Positions 55,128-64,000 of a stretch of DNA of 64,000 bases are shown one piece after another (position 1 is the first letter of the stretch; the number at the start of each line of letters is the position of its first letter). Location of the stretch: the NCBI RefSeq assembly GCF_027925305.1, contig NZ_BSDR01000001.1, positions 4,048,501 to 4,112,500 on the forward strand, in the 5' to 3' direction. The DNA is from Desulforhabdus amnigena (GTDB taxonomy: Bacteria > Desulfobacterota > Syntrophobacteria > Syntrophobacterales > Syntrophobacteraceae). Position numbers and translations under genes: made by a program. Below the pieces are notes generated by a model that did no database searches, was not told where the DNA came from, and was given only the letters and a program-made list of their open reading frames with translations.

Positions 55128-55327
55128 TGTTTTGCGAGGATCAGTGTCGTAAGGGGATCAAAAAAAAATGGTTCGGAAAGAGTTGCGATGCTATATTTAA
55201 ATGTTAAGTTAAAAAAATCACAAAAATTGGCTGGGAAAAGCGGTTTTTACAGTCCGTTGATCCGGGGATAATGGCTTGAACGTTGACCCGTTTTATTGAA
55301 AATGCTTTTTAAGAGAGGATGAAAGGG

Positions 55328-55744
55328 ATGTCCCAAAAAGAAACTGAAGCGATGGAGCCCAGAAATGTGGGTTCTGCCGCACCCGTTAGAAATCCGTACA
55401 TTATTAATTTCTGCAAAGTATTAGTGGAAAAAAAAGGCGAAAAGATTGAAGGTGAACCGTTGAAGAAACTTCTGAACGACATGTACCGCCTTTTTGAATG
55501 CATGCTGGGCCAGAACATGGTCGAAGCCCTGCCTGAAAATCATCGTCAAGAATATCTAAAGATCACCGAAGATCTGAGCAAACTCTCCTATGAAAAGATC
55601 GGGGAGATTTTTGATCGGAACCTTCCCAACTATGAAGAGATCATGAAGAATACCATGAGGCAGTTTGCTGAAATTTTTATGAAAAACAAAGATTTTAATG
55701 TGGCGGACTATCCTGTTCCCATTGAAGTTCTCTCTGAGTCTTAG
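55328..55744 (+). CDS. Conserved small helical protein, function unknown
   Basis: 138 residues from MSQKETEAMEPRN, with AGAGG nine bases upstream (an ATG three codons earlier overlaps that site). It looks all-helical: FCKVLVEKKGEKIEGEPLKK, LLNDMYRLFECMLG, EYLKITEDLSKLSYEKIGEI. Two Cys, no membrane segment. No family recognised. Confidence 0.6.
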   Translation: MSQKETEAMEPRNVGSAAPVRNPYIINFCKVLVEKKGEKIEGEPLKKLLNDMYRLFECMLGQNMVEALPENHRQEYLKITEDLSKLSYEKIGEIFDRNLPNYEEIMKNTMRQFAEIFMKNKDFNVADYPVPIEVLSES

Positions 55745-55930
55745 AACCTATCCAAAAACTCGCAGTCTCATCGGAACACCCCCTCATTCCCCCCTTGAGG
55801 GGGAATAAAAGGGGGGTGTCGAGAACAATCCTTCATGTTGGGTTTCGCTCAGCTGTTTCCGGTTGGCGGGTGGATGGCAGACTCGTGGTTAATTTTAAAG
55901 ATCGGTATCAGGGAAGAGAGGAAAAAGAGA

Positions 55931-56197
55931 ATGCAGGAAGATAAGACAATATGTCCTCATTGTGGTAAGAAAATGAGCAAGTGGCGGACTCCCCCTTTTT
56001 CAACCTGGAGTTCAGAGTTTCTTTACGTCTGCTTTAATGACGAGTGCCCCTATTATGTCAGAGGTTGGAAGCACATGGAAGGCAGTATGCAGCACAAATG
56101 TTCCTACCGCCACAGATACGACCCTGTGGCTGGAACGACCGGGCCGCTACCTGTTTGCTCCGACGATGCTGGTAAGATGGACATTATCGAAGAGTGA
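55931..56197 (+). CDS. Small zinc-ribbon protein (Ogr/Delta-like)
   Basis: 88 residues from MQEDKTICPHCGKKMSKW, GAGAGG upstream. CPHC, then FLYVCFNDECPYYVRGW, gives a four-Cys zinc knuckle with the spacing of Ogr/Delta transcription activator-like fingers. The C-terminus has further Cys and His (QHKCSYRHRYDP). Function unknown. A terminator follows. Confidence 0.7.
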   Translation: MQEDKTICPHCGKKMSKWRTPPFSTWSSEFLYVCFNDECPYYVRGWKHMEGSMQHKCSYRHRYDPVAGTTGPLPVCSDDAGKMDIIEE

Positions 56198-56391: not shown

Positions 56392-57183
56392 TCATGAAGC
56401 GTGGTTTCCCACTCCCCGCATCCTCAGCACCGGCTCGTTGCAAAGGGAAAACTTGAGCCAGAGGAAAGCGAGCCTCAAAAGCGCTTCATCGCTTTCCCGT
56501 ACAGCTTCGCTTTCGCCTTCGGGGAGATCGAAGAGTTGCAAAAATCGGCTTCCCAGAACAAAATCCCTGAATTTATCCAGGTTGTAACTGGCCAGGAAAA
56601 ACATCTGTTGCTGTTTTTCAGAAAGGCCGGAACCCTGCATCACTTTGGGGTGGGTGATGATTTCCATCCAGAGATTATTGAATTCGTTATATTTTTCAAG
56701 ACCTTGATCCTGCGTCCATTCCTGGATAGACCATGTCCTGGATTCTTCGAATCCGAGGCAGTGAGGTTCGTGAAGCACGAAAAAGTCTTCCTGGACCGTG
56801 CCGTGGCGGCGATGCATCCGTGATGCTCTGGCCACGGGATAAATCCTGCAGGCAGCGGGACGGTCCTCATAAACCCGGCAGCCTTTGGGAGTCACAAAGG
56901 GGCAGGTCCTGCGCGGGTCTTCCTGCATCTGAAGGTAAATCATGGGTAGATTGCGCCGTGTGTCAAGCTCCGTTTGGGTATATTGATTCAGAAAAGTGCC
57001 TGCATCCAATCCCAAATGGTTCTTGAGGCGCAAAATGTCATATGGAGTCAGGAGCAGTTTCAGCTCACGACAACATTCGGTGAAACAGGGGACATGGGGG
57101 TGGCAGGCAAATTTGAATTGCCCACCTTCCAGAGGCTGTAGCATTTCCTGAATTGCTTCTGGGGCTGTCTTCTCGAGGGACAT
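56392..57183 (-). CDS. YkgJ-family Cys-cluster protein, copy B
   Basis: 263 residues. FACHPHVPCFTECCRELKLL gives CxxxxxCxxxCC near the N-terminus, and a second Cys group appears in TCPFVTPKGCRVYEDRPAAC. YkgJ (UPF0153) proteins are thought to chelate zinc or iron; function unproven. AAGGA upstream of the ATG. It is a diverged paralogue of the next gene and the last gene of the qmo-linked run. Confidence 0.8.
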   Translation of the reverse strand: MSLEKTAPEAIQEMLQPLEGGQFKFACHPHVPCFTECCRELKLLLTPYDILRLKNHLGLDAGTFLNQYTQTELDTRRNLPMIYLQMQEDPRRTCPFVTPKGCRVYEDRPAACRIYPVARASRMHRRHGTVQEDFFVLHEPHCLGFEESRTWSIQEWTQDQGLEKYNEFNNLWMEIITHPKVMQGSGLSEKQQQMFFLASYNLDKFRDFVLGSRFLQLFDLPEGESEAVRESDEALLRLAFLWLKFSLCNEPVLRMRGVGNHAS

Positions 57184-57227
57184 GGTTATTCCTTACGGCT
57201 TTTTCGGCGGCGATCAACAACCGCCTC

Positions 57228-57950
57228 TCAGATCACTTGATAGAGCTCATCCATCTGACTGCGAATATAGCGGAACGCCAGCCTCAGGAGCGCCTCATCG
57301 TCTTCACGTACCTGGCGGAGCAGTTCATCGTCCACCTCATAGAAGGTTTGAAATCGCTTGTCGTTGAGCATCTCGGCAAATCGATCCAAATCGTAAGCGA
57401 GGAAAAGCAGCTTCCCGAGACCTGCGTCCATGGGGGCTCCGGGCTTGAAGGAAGGAGGGAGAACGGAATGAAAAGCGCGCTCCATTTCCACATAAGGAGC
57501 TACTCCCTGGGTGTCCAACCATTCCTGCACAGTCATGGCCGTCGATTCCTTCAAGCCCATACATCGGTCGCTGCCAACGATCATCTGGTATTCCCCTTCC
57601 CTGGAGGCCAGGTCGAGGGGAAACATGCGGCACGCCCATGGGCGATTGTCGTAAACGCTGCAACCGTCTTTGGTGACGAGCTTACAATAGAGGGTTTCCG
57701 GGTCCATATCGAACTGGACCACGGGAATATGGGTGACGCGCGCCAGAAAATGGCGCGTGTATTTTGCGAGAAACTCTCCCGACCCGATTTTGAGGGAGCG
57801 GCGAAGACGCAGCACATCATAGGGCGTGAGATAGATGTTCACGTCCCTGCAGCATTGAGTGAAACACGGAAGGGTGTCTCGACAGGCGAAACGGAATGTG
57901 CTCTCTGAAGTCAGGATGGGGGCTTCCTTGGGTGACGAATTAGGGTGCAT
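57228..57950 (-). CDS. YkgJ-family Cys-cluster protein, copy A
   Basis: 240 residues, same architecture as copy B: FACRDTLPCFTQCCRDVNIY, then CKLVTKDGCSVYDNRPWACR, followed by a helical C-terminal part. GAGGA four bases before the ATG. The 14-bp gap from the Cys-rich protein and the 44-bp gap to copy B imply one transcript. Possible role in Fe-S supply to Apr/Qmo is inference from position. Confidence 0.8.
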   Translation of the reverse strand: MHPNSSPKEAPILTSESTFRFACRDTLPCFTQCCRDVNIYLTPYDVLRLRRSLKIGSGEFLAKYTRHFLARVTHIPVVQFDMDPETLYCKLVTKDGCSVYDNRPWACRMFPLDLASREGEYQMIVGSDRCMGLKESTAMTVQEWLDTQGVAPYVEMERAFHSVLPPSFKPGAPMDAGLGKLLFLAYDLDRFAEMLNDKRFQTFYEVDDELLRQVREDDEALLRLAFRYIRSQMDELYQVI

Positions 57951-57964
57951 GTGTTCCTCGATCT

Positions 57965-58225
57965 TTATTTGTCCAGCAGAGATGCCTGATAATTTTTGAA
58001 GTTCGGATTGCCTTGCAACAGCTTTTCCACAACGGCAAAAGCTTGCGGATCACAGCAGGCAATGAAATTGCAATCGCATTTGCGCTGGCATTCCTGGCAA
58101 AAATAGTCTTCGTCGAGGGGGGTTCCACAGTAGCAGGTGGGTTCCATGACCAACTGACCATTTTCCCACTTCGCGATGAGGTAGTCCTGCTGGTGGGCTT
58201 TCAACATATCCAATGTTACAGTCAT
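57965..58225 (-). CDS. Small Cys-rich protein in the qmo operon
   Basis: 86 residues from MTVTLDMLKAHQQDYLIAK; AAGGAG ten bases upstream. CYCGTPLDEDYFCQEC and QRKCDCNFIACCDP hold eight Cys, enough for two metal sites. No membrane segment. Small proteins of unknown role follow qmoABC in some Desulfovibrio; I cannot say whether this is related. 121 bp after the Hdr-like gene. Confidence 0.65.
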   Translation of the reverse strand: MTVTLDMLKAHQQDYLIAKWENGQLVMEPTCYCGTPLDEDYFCQECQRKCDCNFIACCDPQAFAVVEKLLQGNPNFKNYQASLLDK

Positions 58226-58346
58226 CGGTGAAGTTCTCCTTTTTTCAAAAGAGATGAGCAATGAAGGGTGAGCGGCGGGAAACACATTGGATTTCCCTCG
58301 CTTCATCCCTCATTGCTCATCGTGGTTCTATTCTGTCTTCCGGCGA

Positions 58347-59510
58347 TCAGGGCAGTGCGGCAGCCAGAAGCTCAGAGAGTTCCGTGATTTCAAGATCATC
58401 CTGTTTTTCCAGGCTCTTGCAGGCATCCGTCAACATATTTACACAGTAGGGGCAGGATGTGGTGAGAATCTCGGCTCCGTGCTCTACAGCGTCTTTTATG
58501 CGCAGCTCTCCGAAACGTTCTCCCATGGGAGCTTCGGCCCAGATGCGTCCTCCACCGCCGGCGCAGCAGAGGCTCATTTCGCGGCGGCGGTCCAGTTCCC
58601 GTGCTTCCACTCCGGGAATGCTGTTCAAAAGGTTCCTGGGGGTGTCGTAAATGCCGCTGTGGCGCCCAAGGTAACACGGGTCGTGGTAGGCGACTTTCTT
58701 TTCAAGGCTCTTGGGGAAGGAAAGCTTGCCTTCCGCGAGAAGTTTTTCCAGGAGTTCCGTGTAATGGATCACTTCCCATTCCCCGCCCAGTTCGGGATAT
58801 TCATTCTTGAACGTCCAGAGGCAATGGGGAGAAGTGGTGATGATTTTCTTGACCCCTTTGCCGTTGAAAAGTTCGATATTGGACTGAGCCAGTTTCATGA
58901 AGAGCTCTTCATCTCCCACTTTTCGAACGCTTTCCCCGCAGCAGCTCTCTTCCGCACCGATCACTCCAAAACTCACCCCGGCAGCCTTCAAGAGCTGAGT
59001 GATGCTCCTGGCGATCTTGGTGCTGCGAGGATCGTAACAGGAGTGGCAGCAGACGAAAAGAAAATATTCTGTATCGGGGCCGAATTGCGGCACATCGAGG
59101 CCCTTTTGCCAGTCCGTTCGTTTTTCACGTGGGCCGGACCATGGGTTCCCGTTGGCATGCGCACTGCCAAGGATAGGTCTGAGATTGGCAGGAGCCATGC
59201 CCGCCCCTACAAGGCTCGCCCTCATGCCGCGAACATTGTCCACGATCTTTACGCCGCGTGGGCAATTGGTTTGACACATACTGCAGGTGGAACAGGCGAA
59301 AAGCACCTCTTCGTCTTCAAAACCTTCCATCCCCATTTGGCCCAGACGCTGCATGTGTCGAATGTTGAACGTCTCGCTGGTCTTGCCCGGAACAAGCCGC
59401 CAGGGGCAAAGATTGGTACAAAGGCCGCATTGCATGCACCAGTTGAGGGTTTGCGCGCCCATTTCGGCAAGGTAATCCCTCATTTCCAATGAAACAACTT
59501 TGGGTTCCAT
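58347..59510 (-). CDS. Soluble HdrC-HdrB-like fusion (QmoC position)
   Basis: 387 residues. Two [4Fe-4S] motifs (Cys25-28-31-35 and 73-76-79-83) are followed by two CCG domains: Cys155/158, 190-191 and 230 (the last in TTSPHC, Ser instead of the first Cys), then 279, 315-316, 353 and 356 (complete). This is the HdrD / GlpC-LutA type. QmoC normally joins an HdrC-like part to a membrane haem b part; no membrane helix exists here. AAGGAG upstream. It probably receives or supplies electrons for QmoAB as a thiol/disulfide-type module. Confidence 0.82.
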   Translation of the reverse strand: MEPKVVSLEMRDYLAEMGAQTLNWCMQCGLCTNLCPWRLVPGKTSETFNIRHMQRLGQMGMEGFEDEEVLFACSTCSMCQTNCPRGVKIVDNVRGMRASLVGAGMAPANLRPILGSAHANGNPWSGPREKRTDWQKGLDVPQFGPDTEYFLFVCCHSCYDPRSTKIARSITQLLKAAGVSFGVIGAEESCCGESVRKVGDEELFMKLAQSNIELFNGKGVKKIITTSPHCLWTFKNEYPELGGEWEVIHYTELLEKLLAEGKLSFPKSLEKKVAYHDPCYLGRHSGIYDTPRNLLNSIPGVEARELDRRREMSLCCAGGGGRIWAEAPMGERFGELRIKDAVEHGAEILTTSCPYCVNMLTDACKSLEKQDDLEITELSELLAAALP

Positions 59511-59691: not shown

Positions 59692-61911
59692 TTAAAAACC
59701 TTTGTAGGGATTGGGTCCGACCTCTTCCAATTTGGATGAAAAATCATCCAGAATTTGAGGCAATCGATGATAATCCATGATGGAAATCTGCTCCAGTCGA
59801 ACCCTGTCGGATTCCAGAACAAGACGGTTCAACGTTTCCTGGATTTTGCTCATGCGGATGTTGGCCAGTTCGCTGCCCTTGACGAAATGACACTGGTAAT
59901 CGTCTCCGTGTTTGCAGCCGAGCAGAAGTATGCCGTCTATTCCTTTGGAAAGTGCGTCTGCGATCCATACCAGATTCATGGAACCCAGGCAGCGGACGGG
60001 CAAAATGCGCACCCATGGATTATAGCCCATGCGCCGAATGCCGACCATATCCAAGGCGGGATAGGCATCGTTTTCGCAAGCCAGCACCAGGATGCGAGGT
60101 TTTTCTTCGTATTCGTCAGGCACCTGGATGCTCTTGATCATATTGCCGACCATACCTACGGAATAATTCTTGAACGAGATGATACGTTCCGGGCATGCTC
60201 CCATGCAAACACCGCAACGGCGGCATCGGGTGGGGTTCGGCAGGGGATTGCCCTTTTCGTCTTCATTGATGGCGCCAAAGGGGCATTCTTCCGTACAACG
60301 TTTGCACTGAGTGCAACGCTGCATGAAGAATTCGGGGTAACTGAGATCGCCGGCACGCGGATGAACCGCCTTTCCCTCTGCGACCATTTCCACACATTGG
60401 ATGGCTTTCAGCGCGGCTCCAGTGGCATCGTCGATTGCCCTTGCGTAATCCATGGGAGCTCGAACGGTCCCTGCGGGATAGATGCCGGTTCTCCTCGATT
60501 CGTAGGGAAAGCAGACAAAATGGGAGTCGGGAAAGCCATACTTGAGAGCCGGCAGCTCCGGTCCCTGGCGATACTGGAGGTTCAAGATATTGGATGCGAG
60601 GATGGTATCGGCGGGAACTTCCTGGGCTTCTTCCCCTTCCTTTTGAGCCTGTGCTTTGTAGGGTTCCCCGAACGCCGTGGAAGGAACCATGCCGTTGGCA
60701 AGCACGACCAAATCCAGGGATTCGGACATGATGGGAGAACGCGTGAGAATGTCTTCAGCGAGGATGATGAGACTTCCCGAACCGTCATCTTCAATACCGC
60801 TCACCGTACCCCGAACAAAGATGACTCCATCTTTCTGCAATTGCTTGTAAAGGAGTTCGTAATTTCCGTTGGCACGGATATCTTTGTAAAAAATATAAAC
60901 TGCCGATTCGGGATTGGCCTCTTTGAAGTATTTGGCTTGCTTGAGGGATTCCACACAGCAGGCGGCAGAGCAGTAGGGCAGGTGTTCAGGATCGCGCGAA
61001 CCGGCGCATAAAATGAAAGCGACGGCATTTACAGGTTGACCATTGGACGGCCGCTTGACATCACCCGATTTGAACAGAGGTTCCAGTTGAGAGGCGGTGA
61101 TGACATCGGGAAACTGCCCGTACCCGAGATGTCCCAGTTTCTGGGGATCGTACTCGACGGCCCCTGTGGTCAAAACGATCGATCCCACCCGTTCCTGGAC
61201 CTGGTTGCCGTTTTGAGCGATCTGAACATCGAACATGCAGGGAGCGCCTGAAACCTGCGCCACCTGCGCACCGGTATAGACCGTGACCTTGGGTCGCTCG
61301 GTCACCTCCTGAATGAGGCCCTGCAGGTCGAGTTCCTGAAGCTCTTCATAGGGGGGCTGAGAAGGAGGCAATTTATACACATCCTTCAGATACCCACCCA
61401 GTTGATCCGTTTTTTCGACAAGAATCGTTTCGTAACCCGCCTTGGCCGCTTCATTGGCTGCAGTGATTCCAGCCAGTCCTCCACCCACAACGAGAATGCG
61501 CTTGCTCAGATTTTCCGCCTCGAAGGGTACCGGGGATTCGGATTCCATGGCTTTGGTGATTCCCATGCGGAGAAAATCCTGGGCCATCATCTGAGTATCT
61601 TCATCATTGGCGGGATGAGACCAAACCACCTGCTCCCGGAGATTGACCCTTTCGACGACCTTATCCGGGGAAAAAGCAAAGACATCGGTCATGACCCTGG
61701 GCGAACAGGCCGCTATGACGGCGGTGTCGATTTCGCCGGATTCGAGATCGGACTTGATAAGGGCGACTCCTTCAGGACTGCAGAGAAACGGATGCTGCTT
61801 GCAGACGGGAACATTGTATTCGGATGTGGCCACCCCGGCTAGGGCTTCCATGTCGAGTGCATCACCCAGCCCGCAGCCTGAGCAAATATAGACCCCCATT
61901 TTCTTTTCCAT
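59692..61911 (-). CDS. qmoB: QmoB, quinone-interacting oxidoreductase subunit B
   Basis: 739 residues from MEKKMGVYICSGCG; AGGAGG upstream excludes a longer frame overlapping qmoA. HdrA-like flavoprotein: FAD motif VGGGLAGITAANEAAKAGYE, ferredoxin motifs CTQCKRCTEECP and CRRCGVCMGACP, and a C-terminal MvhD-like domain (LACENDAYPALDMVGIRRMG, RCLGSMN, GCKHGDDYQC). It passes electrons toward Apr in sulfate reducers. Four bases after the qmoA stop. Confidence 0.93.
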   Translation of the reverse strand: MEKKMGVYICSGCGLGDALDMEALAGVATSEYNVPVCKQHPFLCSPEGVALIKSDLESGEIDTAVIAACSPRVMTDVFAFSPDKVVERVNLREQVVWSHPANDEDTQMMAQDFLRMGITKAMESESPVPFEAENLSKRILVVGGGLAGITAANEAAKAGYETILVEKTDQLGGYLKDVYKLPPSQPPYEELQELDLQGLIQEVTERPKVTVYTGAQVAQVSGAPCMFDVQIAQNGNQVQERVGSIVLTTGAVEYDPQKLGHLGYGQFPDVITASQLEPLFKSGDVKRPSNGQPVNAVAFILCAGSRDPEHLPYCSAACCVESLKQAKYFKEANPESAVYIFYKDIRANGNYELLYKQLQKDGVIFVRGTVSGIEDDGSGSLIILAEDILTRSPIMSESLDLVVLANGMVPSTAFGEPYKAQAQKEGEEAQEVPADTILASNILNLQYRQGPELPALKYGFPDSHFVCFPYESRRTGIYPAGTVRAPMDYARAIDDATGAALKAIQCVEMVAEGKAVHPRAGDLSYPEFFMQRCTQCKRCTEECPFGAINEDEKGNPLPNPTRCRRCGVCMGACPERIISFKNYSVGMVGNMIKSIQVPDEYEEKPRILVLACENDAYPALDMVGIRRMGYNPWVRILPVRCLGSMNLVWIADALSKGIDGILLLGCKHGDDYQCHFVKGSELANIRMSKIQETLNRLVLESDRVRLEQISIMDYHRLPQILDDFSSKLEEVGPNPYKGF

Positions 61912-61915
61912 TGAG

Positions 61916-63184
61916 CTACCTCCTGCACGTTGCCTGAATGGCTTTGAGAGCTGCTGCGGTTGCATCCTGAACACTGGATGCAACGTCCACCGGGCTTTTT
62001 ACACATCCTGCGCCAATGATTCCGGCAGTGGGCTGCGCTTTGAGGATAAATCCATTGTCATCGTATGCGGCATCCGCCGGGATTTTAGTGGTGGCGGAGC
62101 TGGGCACCATTCCGGTGGCGAGCACCACGAGGTCGTACTGTTCCTTGAGAATTTTGCCGGTAGCCTGGTCTTCCACCTGCACGGTGACCAGGCCGGTGGC
62201 AGGATCTTCGGTGATTTCTCCAGCCTTTCCCTTGATGAGGGTAACCCGGTCGTCGGATTGAACTTTATTGAAAAAGTCTTCGTACTTTCCAAGAGCGCGG
62301 ATGTCGATATAGTAAATGGCGGCCTGTGCCTGTGGGTTTTGTTCCAAAAGATAGGTCGCCTGCTTGAGAGAAGCCAGGCAGCAGACGCCCGAACAATAGG
62401 GCAGGTGGTTTTCATCGCGGGACCCGGCGCACTGGATGAAAGCGATTTTGTTGACTTGCGTGCCGTCCGAGATGCGGGTGATTTTGCCGTTGGTCGGCCC
62501 GTTGTAGGAAGCGAGGCGCTCCATCATGACATTGGTGATGACATTTCGGTGTTTGCCTGCGCCGTAGTAGATGATTTTTTCCGCCGCGTATGGCTCCCAG
62601 CCCGTTGCCCAAACGATGGCTCCGACCTTCAGGTCGAATTGCTCCGGTTGCATGGTGAGATCAATGGCGTCATAGGGACAGGATGCTTTGATTTTTTCCG
62701 CTTCAGGCGTTCCAATGACTTCCGGAGCCAAAACGTACCGCATGGGAAATGCAAATTCGTGGGGCAAATACGCAGCCTTTACTTTATCCATCCCGTAATT
62801 GAAGTCGTTTGGGATTTCTGTTTCCGCCGCCGCAGCGCAAAGGCCGCATCCGGTGCATTTTTCATTTACGAAGCGAGGACTGGTTTTAATGGTCACGTCA
62901 AAGTCTCCCGCTTGACCTTCGATCTTTTGAACTTCCGCCATAGTGAAAAATCGTATAAGGGGGTTGCTTTTGATGCGGCGAAAGTTGATTTCCAATCCAC
63001 AGTTGGGAGGACATAATTTGGGAAAATACTTGTTCATCCGTGTAACACGTCCGCCCAGATAGGGCTGTTTTTCTACCAGATAGACCTGGCAACCAGCTTC
63101 AGCGGCCTCCAAAGCGGCGCTCAAGCCACTCATGCCGCCTCCCACCACTAGAATGCTCCGGTTTCCGCTCAACGAATCGGCCAT
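61916..63184 (-). CDS. qmoA: QmoA, quinone-interacting oxidoreductase subunit A
   Basis: 422 residues. FAD-binding GGGMSGLSAALEAAEAG near the N-terminus, CPPNCGLEINFRRIKSNP, and CTGCGLCAAAAETEIP carrying Cys. HdrA-like soluble flavoprotein. GGAGGAATTAT precedes the ATG. It pairs with qmoB in all organisms with the complex. The gap to aprA carries a terminator. Confidence 0.93.
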   Translation of the reverse strand: MADSLSGNRSILVVGGGMSGLSAALEAAEAGCQVYLVEKQPYLGGRVTRMNKYFPKLCPPNCGLEINFRRIKSNPLIRFFTMAEVQKIEGQAGDFDVTIKTSPRFVNEKCTGCGLCAAAAETEIPNDFNYGMDKVKAAYLPHEFAFPMRYVLAPEVIGTPEAEKIKASCPYDAIDLTMQPEQFDLKVGAIVWATGWEPYAAEKIIYYGAGKHRNVITNVMMERLASYNGPTNGKITRISDGTQVNKIAFIQCAGSRDENHLPYCSGVCCLASLKQATYLLEQNPQAQAAIYYIDIRALGKYEDFFNKVQSDDRVTLIKGKAGEITEDPATGLVTVQVEDQATGKILKEQYDLVVLATGMVPSSATTKIPADAAYDDNGFILKAQPTAGIIGAGCVKSPVDVASSVQDATAAALKAIQATCRR

Positions 63185-63460: not shown

Positions 63461-64000
63461 TTACACGATGTTTACAACAGGAACCTTCTTCATCGTCCAC
63501 TCACCGGTCTTGGGATTGTACACTGAGTTGACGAATACCTTCCAGTTCGCTTCATCCATATTGGGATAGTCAGCGCGGAAATAGTAACCGGGCCAACGGC
63601 TTTCCTCACGGAAGAGCACGTGACGCAGATGGCTTTCTGCAATCCACATACGGTGGGTATTTTCCCAGCAACGAAGCAGTTCGTGCAGGCTGGATGCAGC
63701 CAGCTTCTCGGAGTCTTCCTTCAGCATGCCAAGGAGTTCAAGACCTTTTTCCAGGAGAGCCTTGTTGGTGGTGAACTGTGCGCTAACGCCGGCGACATAT
63801 TCATCCATGATCTTCTGGAGGCGGAACATGAACATCTTGGGTTTGATGAAGTTGGGGTTGATGTCGGGATCGCTGGAGAGTGCGCCAAATTTCTCGAAGA
63901 GAGCCAAAGGTGCAAGGATTTTCTCTTTCCATGCAGCGATGGTCGCATCGTCAACCTGAGGAGCAACGTTGTTGTCCAGGATGTATGCGATAGCGCCCTT
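63461..64000 (-). CDS. aprA: Adenylylsulfate reductase subunit alpha (partial)
   Basis: The last 179 residues of AprA; the frame runs off the window edge. ESRWPGYYFRADYPNMDEAN and the ending TGEWTMKKVPVVNIV are characteristic of the C-terminal domain. AprAB reduces adenosine 5'-phosphosulfate to sulfite and AMP in the cytoplasm, with electrons delivered through Qmo. aprB and sat should lie beyond the edge. Confidence 0.95.
   Translation of the reverse strand, partial: KGAIAYILDNNVAPQVDDATIAAWKEKILAPLALFEKFGALSSDPDINPNFIKPKMFMFRLQKIMDEYVAGVSAQFTTNKALLEKGLELLGMLKEDSEKLAASSLHELLRCWENTHRMWIAESHLRHVLFREESRWPGYYFRADYPNMDEANWKVFVNSVYNPKTGEWTMKKVPVVNIV

Follow-up and report, generated by a model that had tools for sequence, protein, structure and literature searches.

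One of the key enzymes in biological sulfate reduction is APS reductase (AprBA). Lysine trimethylation of AprA and AprB has been described in D. vulgaris, along with recovery of MetK and AhcY in an AprA pull-down, and the accessible text of that report names no methylase for the modification (PMC3125180). The only characterised PF03692-like protein that we found is FliB, in which one [4Fe-4S] cluster at a CX4CX3CC motif is essential for SAM-dependent lysine methylation, and whose authors liken that motif to PF03692 (PMC8598068). The D. vulgaris qmo operon itself ends in a small accessory gene directly after qmo, qmoD (DVU0851), which encodes a protein of 25.8 kDa (PMC10920352). Here we compare these systems with three cysteine-rich genes that follow the apr-qmo cluster of Desulforhabdus amnigena, two of which belong to a PF03692 subfamily that probably serves APS reductase specifically, as an enzyme of its modification or maturation.

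Organization and conservation of the locus

The window, by which we mean the whole 64,000-nucleotide stretch of DNA that was analysed, lies in a genome of one 4.54 Mb contig, with Desulforhabdus sp. TSK as its nearest named relative. Downstream of aprBA-qmoAB-hdrCB, all on the minus strand, are Cys86 (57965..58225; 86 aa, 8 Cys), YkgJ1 (57228..57950; 240 aa, 8 Cys) and its paralogue YkgJ2 (56392..57183; 263 aa, 9 Cys), which carries the same motif. The initial annotation, which had described an 86-residue protein with eight cysteines and two YkgJ paralogues in one direction, was exact in this, including the gaps of 14 bp between Cys86 and YkgJ1 and 44 bp between YkgJ1 and YkgJ2. Upstream on the same strand lie an hdrCB-like gene (58347..59510), qmoB (59692..61911; HdrA-like plus FlpD domain) and qmoA (61916..63184; identified by profile matches), with aprBA immediately upstream of qmoA-qmoB. 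The aprA gene crosses the window end, so that only its 3' part (63461..64000, minus strand) falls within it; the remainder and aprB lie beyond (L003), and the full aprA gene (G000:C1:4111964-4113832) matches TIGR02061 with 939 bits. The hdrCB-like gene occupies the qmoC position, where a fused HdrC-HdrB protein of 387 aa without a membrane domain (two CCG domains, PF02754, and a 4Fe-4S Fer4_8 domain) replaces the membrane protein QmoC; against the QmoC model NF038018 it scores 35.8 bits, over its HdrC-like part only and below the cutoff of 300.

The gap between hdrCB and Cys86 measures 121 bp and holds an imperfect (80%) 30-bp inverted repeat (58253..58321, minus strand), of which there is no second copy elsewhere in the window. 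Folding predicts a strong RNA hairpin here (-46.8 kcal/mol, z -5.5), which is absent from the terminator scan output and is not a canonical terminator. From this gap and its hairpin, we consider it likely that the trio and hdrCB share one transcript. Convergent with the trio on the plus strand are an Ogr/Delta-type zinc-finger gene (55835..56197; PF04606) and a DUF5663 gene (55319..55744; PF18908). An Ogr/Delta gene adjoins the trio or qmo in 20 loci and DUF5663 is kept in this neighbourhood in 12; some of these loci have no apr/qmo nearby. A SEC-C motif protein of ~440 aa is also encoded near the trio in L040 (12674-14005), L041 (10281-11582) and L126 (10185-11501), and is conserved in L140 too.

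Because Desulforhabdus sp. TSK has orthologues of the trio that are 78-86% identical and identically ordered, and other families have orthologues that are 30-70% identical, we regard the three ORFs as real genes. The order Cys86-YkgJ1-YkgJ2 after hdrCB is maintained across most of the taxonomic order. In other groups of the class (L040, L041, L050, L051, L126) the trio is rearranged, with its genes on the other strand or Cys86 in last place, and is still several kb or less from apr/qmo, which counts against mere common descent of one operon. Some class members (L042, L043, L046, L048, L049), metagenome bins of which at least one contains runs of N, show no apr/qmo within the locus DNA examined, and G042 and G046 have no clear aprA. 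Outside the class, a YkgJ of the same type is found beside apr/qmo, unaccompanied by Cys86, in many families, either between aprA and qmoA (L145, L146, L152-L154) or a few kb or less from qmoC, aprA or aprB (L131-L133, L140, L144). The genome scan used one peptide pattern, and its loci, at least 19, are not a census.

Relationship to described proteins

YkgJ1 and YkgJ2, which are 34-38% identical to each other, both pass the PF03692 (CxxCxxCC/YkgJ) gathering cutoff of 23 bits, with scores of 38.1 and 39.4. They nevertheless differ from the family as named: instead of CX2CX2CC nearly all subfamily hits read CX5CX3CC (two near-identical hits have an extra Cys after this spacing), their length is ~240-265 aa, and they are tied to aprA. 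Eight cysteines are invariant across 30 homologues, as are many further non-Cys residues over ~150 aa, and in the family tree the orthologues of YkgJ1 and YkgJ2 fall in different, older branches. YkgJ1, modelled by AlphaFold with pLDDT 82 and pTM 0.82, has no match in the PDB by sequence or fold.

The resemblance to FliB lies in an N-terminal cysteine cluster of near-equal spacing (CX4CX3CC in FliB), in eight cysteines that are reported as highly conserved in FliB and are invariant here, in the similarity to the PF03692 motif, and in the lack of a known methyltransferase fold. By contrast, the FliB model NF038110 has 373 positions against the 240-263 aa of YkgJ1 and YkgJ2, the substrate of FliB is flagellin, and activity is known for FliB alone. 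Three of the 30 subfamily members match NF038110 weakly, far below its cutoff of 85 bits, and we do not place the subfamily in FliB; the match inspected (15.5 bits, best E 0.002) is colinear over the cysteine region, with CX5CX3CC at the equivalent place. Among 148 genomes of the phylum, no FliB scored above this cutoff.

The cysteines of Cys86 are arranged as C31-x-C33-G, C43-x2-C46, C50, C52 and C57, and in an alignment of 28 sequences C31, C43, C46 and C57 are invariant and C33 and C50 near-invariant. It matched no Pfam or NCBIfam family, no significant PHROG, and no PDB entry by sequence or fold. AlphaFold predicts a small mixed fold with confidence (pLDDT 93), in which the modelled CxCG...CxxC knuckles resemble a zinc ribbon. 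Cys86 of family f44 has CxxCG as its first cysteine pair and occurs there without nearby YkgJ genes (L110-L112, L115-L117), adjoining an acyl-CoA dehydrogenase-like gene in L110-L112. Like qmoD, Cys86 is a small accessory gene directly after qmo, but its product is far smaller, and we rejected their identity because size and profile both misfit: a 255-aa ORF with 4 Cys that follows a qmoC-like gene in Desulfovibrionaceae (L127 273-1040), our stand-in for DVU0851, is matched by neither the Cys86 nor the YkgJ profiles.

Association with APS reductase

The initial annotation had tied the trio to Apr/Qmo, and co-occurrence with apr was checked in 297 genomes of the phylum; apr also occurs in other phyla (Archaeoglobi, Nitrospirota, Firmicutes). 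The YkgJ subfamily is present in 124 of these genomes and aprA in 119; 114 have both, 10 YkgJ only, 5 aprA only and 168 neither. The subfamily is therefore found in ~96% of aprA-positive genomes (114/119) versus ~6% of aprA-negative ones (10/178), a pattern consistent over 41 families, and the Fisher value of 6e-63 is uncorrected for phylogeny and so overstated by the kinship of the genomes. Three of the five aprA-positive genomes without the subfamily are less than 85% complete. Two Syntrophobacteraceae (G014, G019) are missing both apr and the subfamily, unlike their congeners, as is G266 (100% complete, dsrA kept) compared with its congeners G244 and G287; in G245 and G142 only a divergent YkgJ copy remains. 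Cys86 occurs in 23 of the 297 genomes, 20 of them with aprA (3 with Cys86 only, 99 with aprA only, 175 with neither). We rejected it as the core of the Apr link, since most sulfate reducers lack it and the signal lies with the YkgJ pair. Within the phylum, the trio was not found to be common in non-sulfate-reducers without a link to apr/qmo.

As a predictor of the subfamily dsrA is poorer than aprA (117 genomes with both, 7 with YkgJ only, 27 with dsrA only, 146 with neither), and Dsr was rejected as the primary YkgJ partner on this weaker co-occurrence. Moreover, 23 of the 30 genomes that have dsrA and no aprA are without the subfamily, which argues that it follows apr rather than dsr. Among the 150 YkgJ hits listed, 61 (in 48 genomes) lie within 20 kb of aprA, compared with 18 (in 13 genomes) within 20 kb of dsrA, and several genomes with a copy near dsrA hold aprA in the same cluster.

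Genus g7 of the Syntrophobacteraceae (G018, G007) bears on which part of Apr/Qmo is the partner. Its AprA and AprB are 82-84% identical to those of the distant family f44 (G093) and only 54-67% identical to those of its own family, whereas its QmoA and QmoB are closer to its own family (66-74% identical) than to f44 (55-58%). Both of its YkgJ proteins cluster with the f44 copies with full support (57 and 62% identity), and its two ykgJ genes lie between aprA and qmoA, the same placement as in f44. The simplest reading of these sequences is that an aprBA-ykgJ-ykgJ cassette was transferred, apparently replacing the native aprBA (L152, L153, L154); because qmoAB stayed native, the partner of YkgJ would be APS reductase rather than Qmo. 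The cassette did not include Cys86. Both aprA types are present in genome G022. The proposed link to Apr/Qmo has thus proved strong for the YkgJ pair, with its recurrent linkage, and moderate for Cys86, and it is the Qmo part that the transfer case does not bear out. We hold it highly probable that the YkgJ pair is a dedicated accessory module of AprBA. A limited search, with older subscription papers outside its scope, found no literature joining YkgJ with sulfate reducers; older comparative studies of conserved hypothetical genes near apr or dsr may already include these genes.

Candidate roles of the YkgJ pair

By analogy with FliB, the CX5CX3CC motif of YkgJ would bind one [4Fe-4S] cluster, and the protein would act on AprBA as a lysine methylase dependent on S-adenosylmethionine, with Cys86 as a zinc-ribbon-like helper in some lineages only. 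A possible target is the lysine of the AprA peptide GPVGAWFLLFK, which carries trimethylation in D. vulgaris. This explanation as a whole, an AprBA-dedicated CX5CX3CC subfamily carrying out FliB-like SAM lysine methylation with Cys86 as helper, is a real possibility that we would stop short of calling probable. That the pair methylates AprBA lysines specifically we propose a shade more tentatively, and most tentatively of the three that these are phylum-wide, dedicated Fe-S lysine methyltransferases travelling with APS reductase, and would be the missing writers of the trimethyl-lysines of D. vulgaris AprA and AprB.

The GPVGAWFLLFK lysine of AprA occurs in all apr loci read save that of G213 (L105, L150), where Ala replaces it; this genome, 82% complete, has aprA and is without the YkgJ subfamily, and the coincidence of the two losses in one incomplete genome is suggestive. 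Counting against a methylase, three other aprA-positive genomes without the subfamily (G081, G156, G057) keep the lysine, whose conservation may have other causes. L107 and L145, both with YkgJ, lack the AprB lysine of MWTVKFR, again contrary to a methylase; this lysine shows no clear pattern with YkgJ presence. We also count against it the Desulfovibrionaceae, where methylation was seen and where there is a single divergent full-length YkgJ copy, unlinked, as well as the ten aprA-negative genomes that have the subfamily, the low FliB scores and the lack of a PDB fold match. All 8 Desulfovibrionaceae sampled have a gene of the ykgJ type, so that D. vulgaris Hildenborough probably has one too.

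The serious rival is the metallochaperone or cluster-repair role suggested by the initial annotation, in which the Cys-rich proteins would pass iron or an Fe-S cluster to AprB, with its two [4Fe-4S] clusters, or to AprBA-Qmo. Such a role would agree with the invariant cysteines, the co-occurrence with an Fe-S enzyme, the co-transfer with aprBA and the Pfam description of PF03692 as a putative zinc- or iron-chelating domain. However, the nearest characterised motif, that of FliB, serves catalysis and is not known for delivery (PMC8598068), and eight invariant cysteines together with so many invariant non-Cys residues look more enzyme- than carrier-like. A FliB-like modifying enzyme fits the link at least as well, and we favour an APS-reductase lysine methylase over a metallochaperone, which we consider rather unlikely. 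Less likely again is an electron-transfer or redox-sensing accessory of Apr/Qmo, its cluster acting as a relay or oxygen sensor: the genes do adjoin an electron-transfer complex, but they appear to have been co-transferred with aprBA and not with qmo, and in several lineages YkgJ copies are distant from qmo. Finally, a general marker of sulfur respiration tied to Dsr (DsrC or DsrAB, for example), associated with apr by pathway clustering only, could draw on the copies near dsrA and on DsrC, likewise reported as trimethylated (PMC3125180), but is quite improbable given the more numerous copies near aprA, the aprA genes that share clusters with dsrA, and the dsrA-positive, aprA-negative genomes that are without the subfamily.

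Returning to APS reductase and its methylation, the distribution of the subfamily (~96% versus ~6%) and its co-transfer with aprBA point to an unrecognised step in the making or modifying of this enzyme, and the YkgJ subfamily would provide named candidates for the enzyme that methylates AprA.
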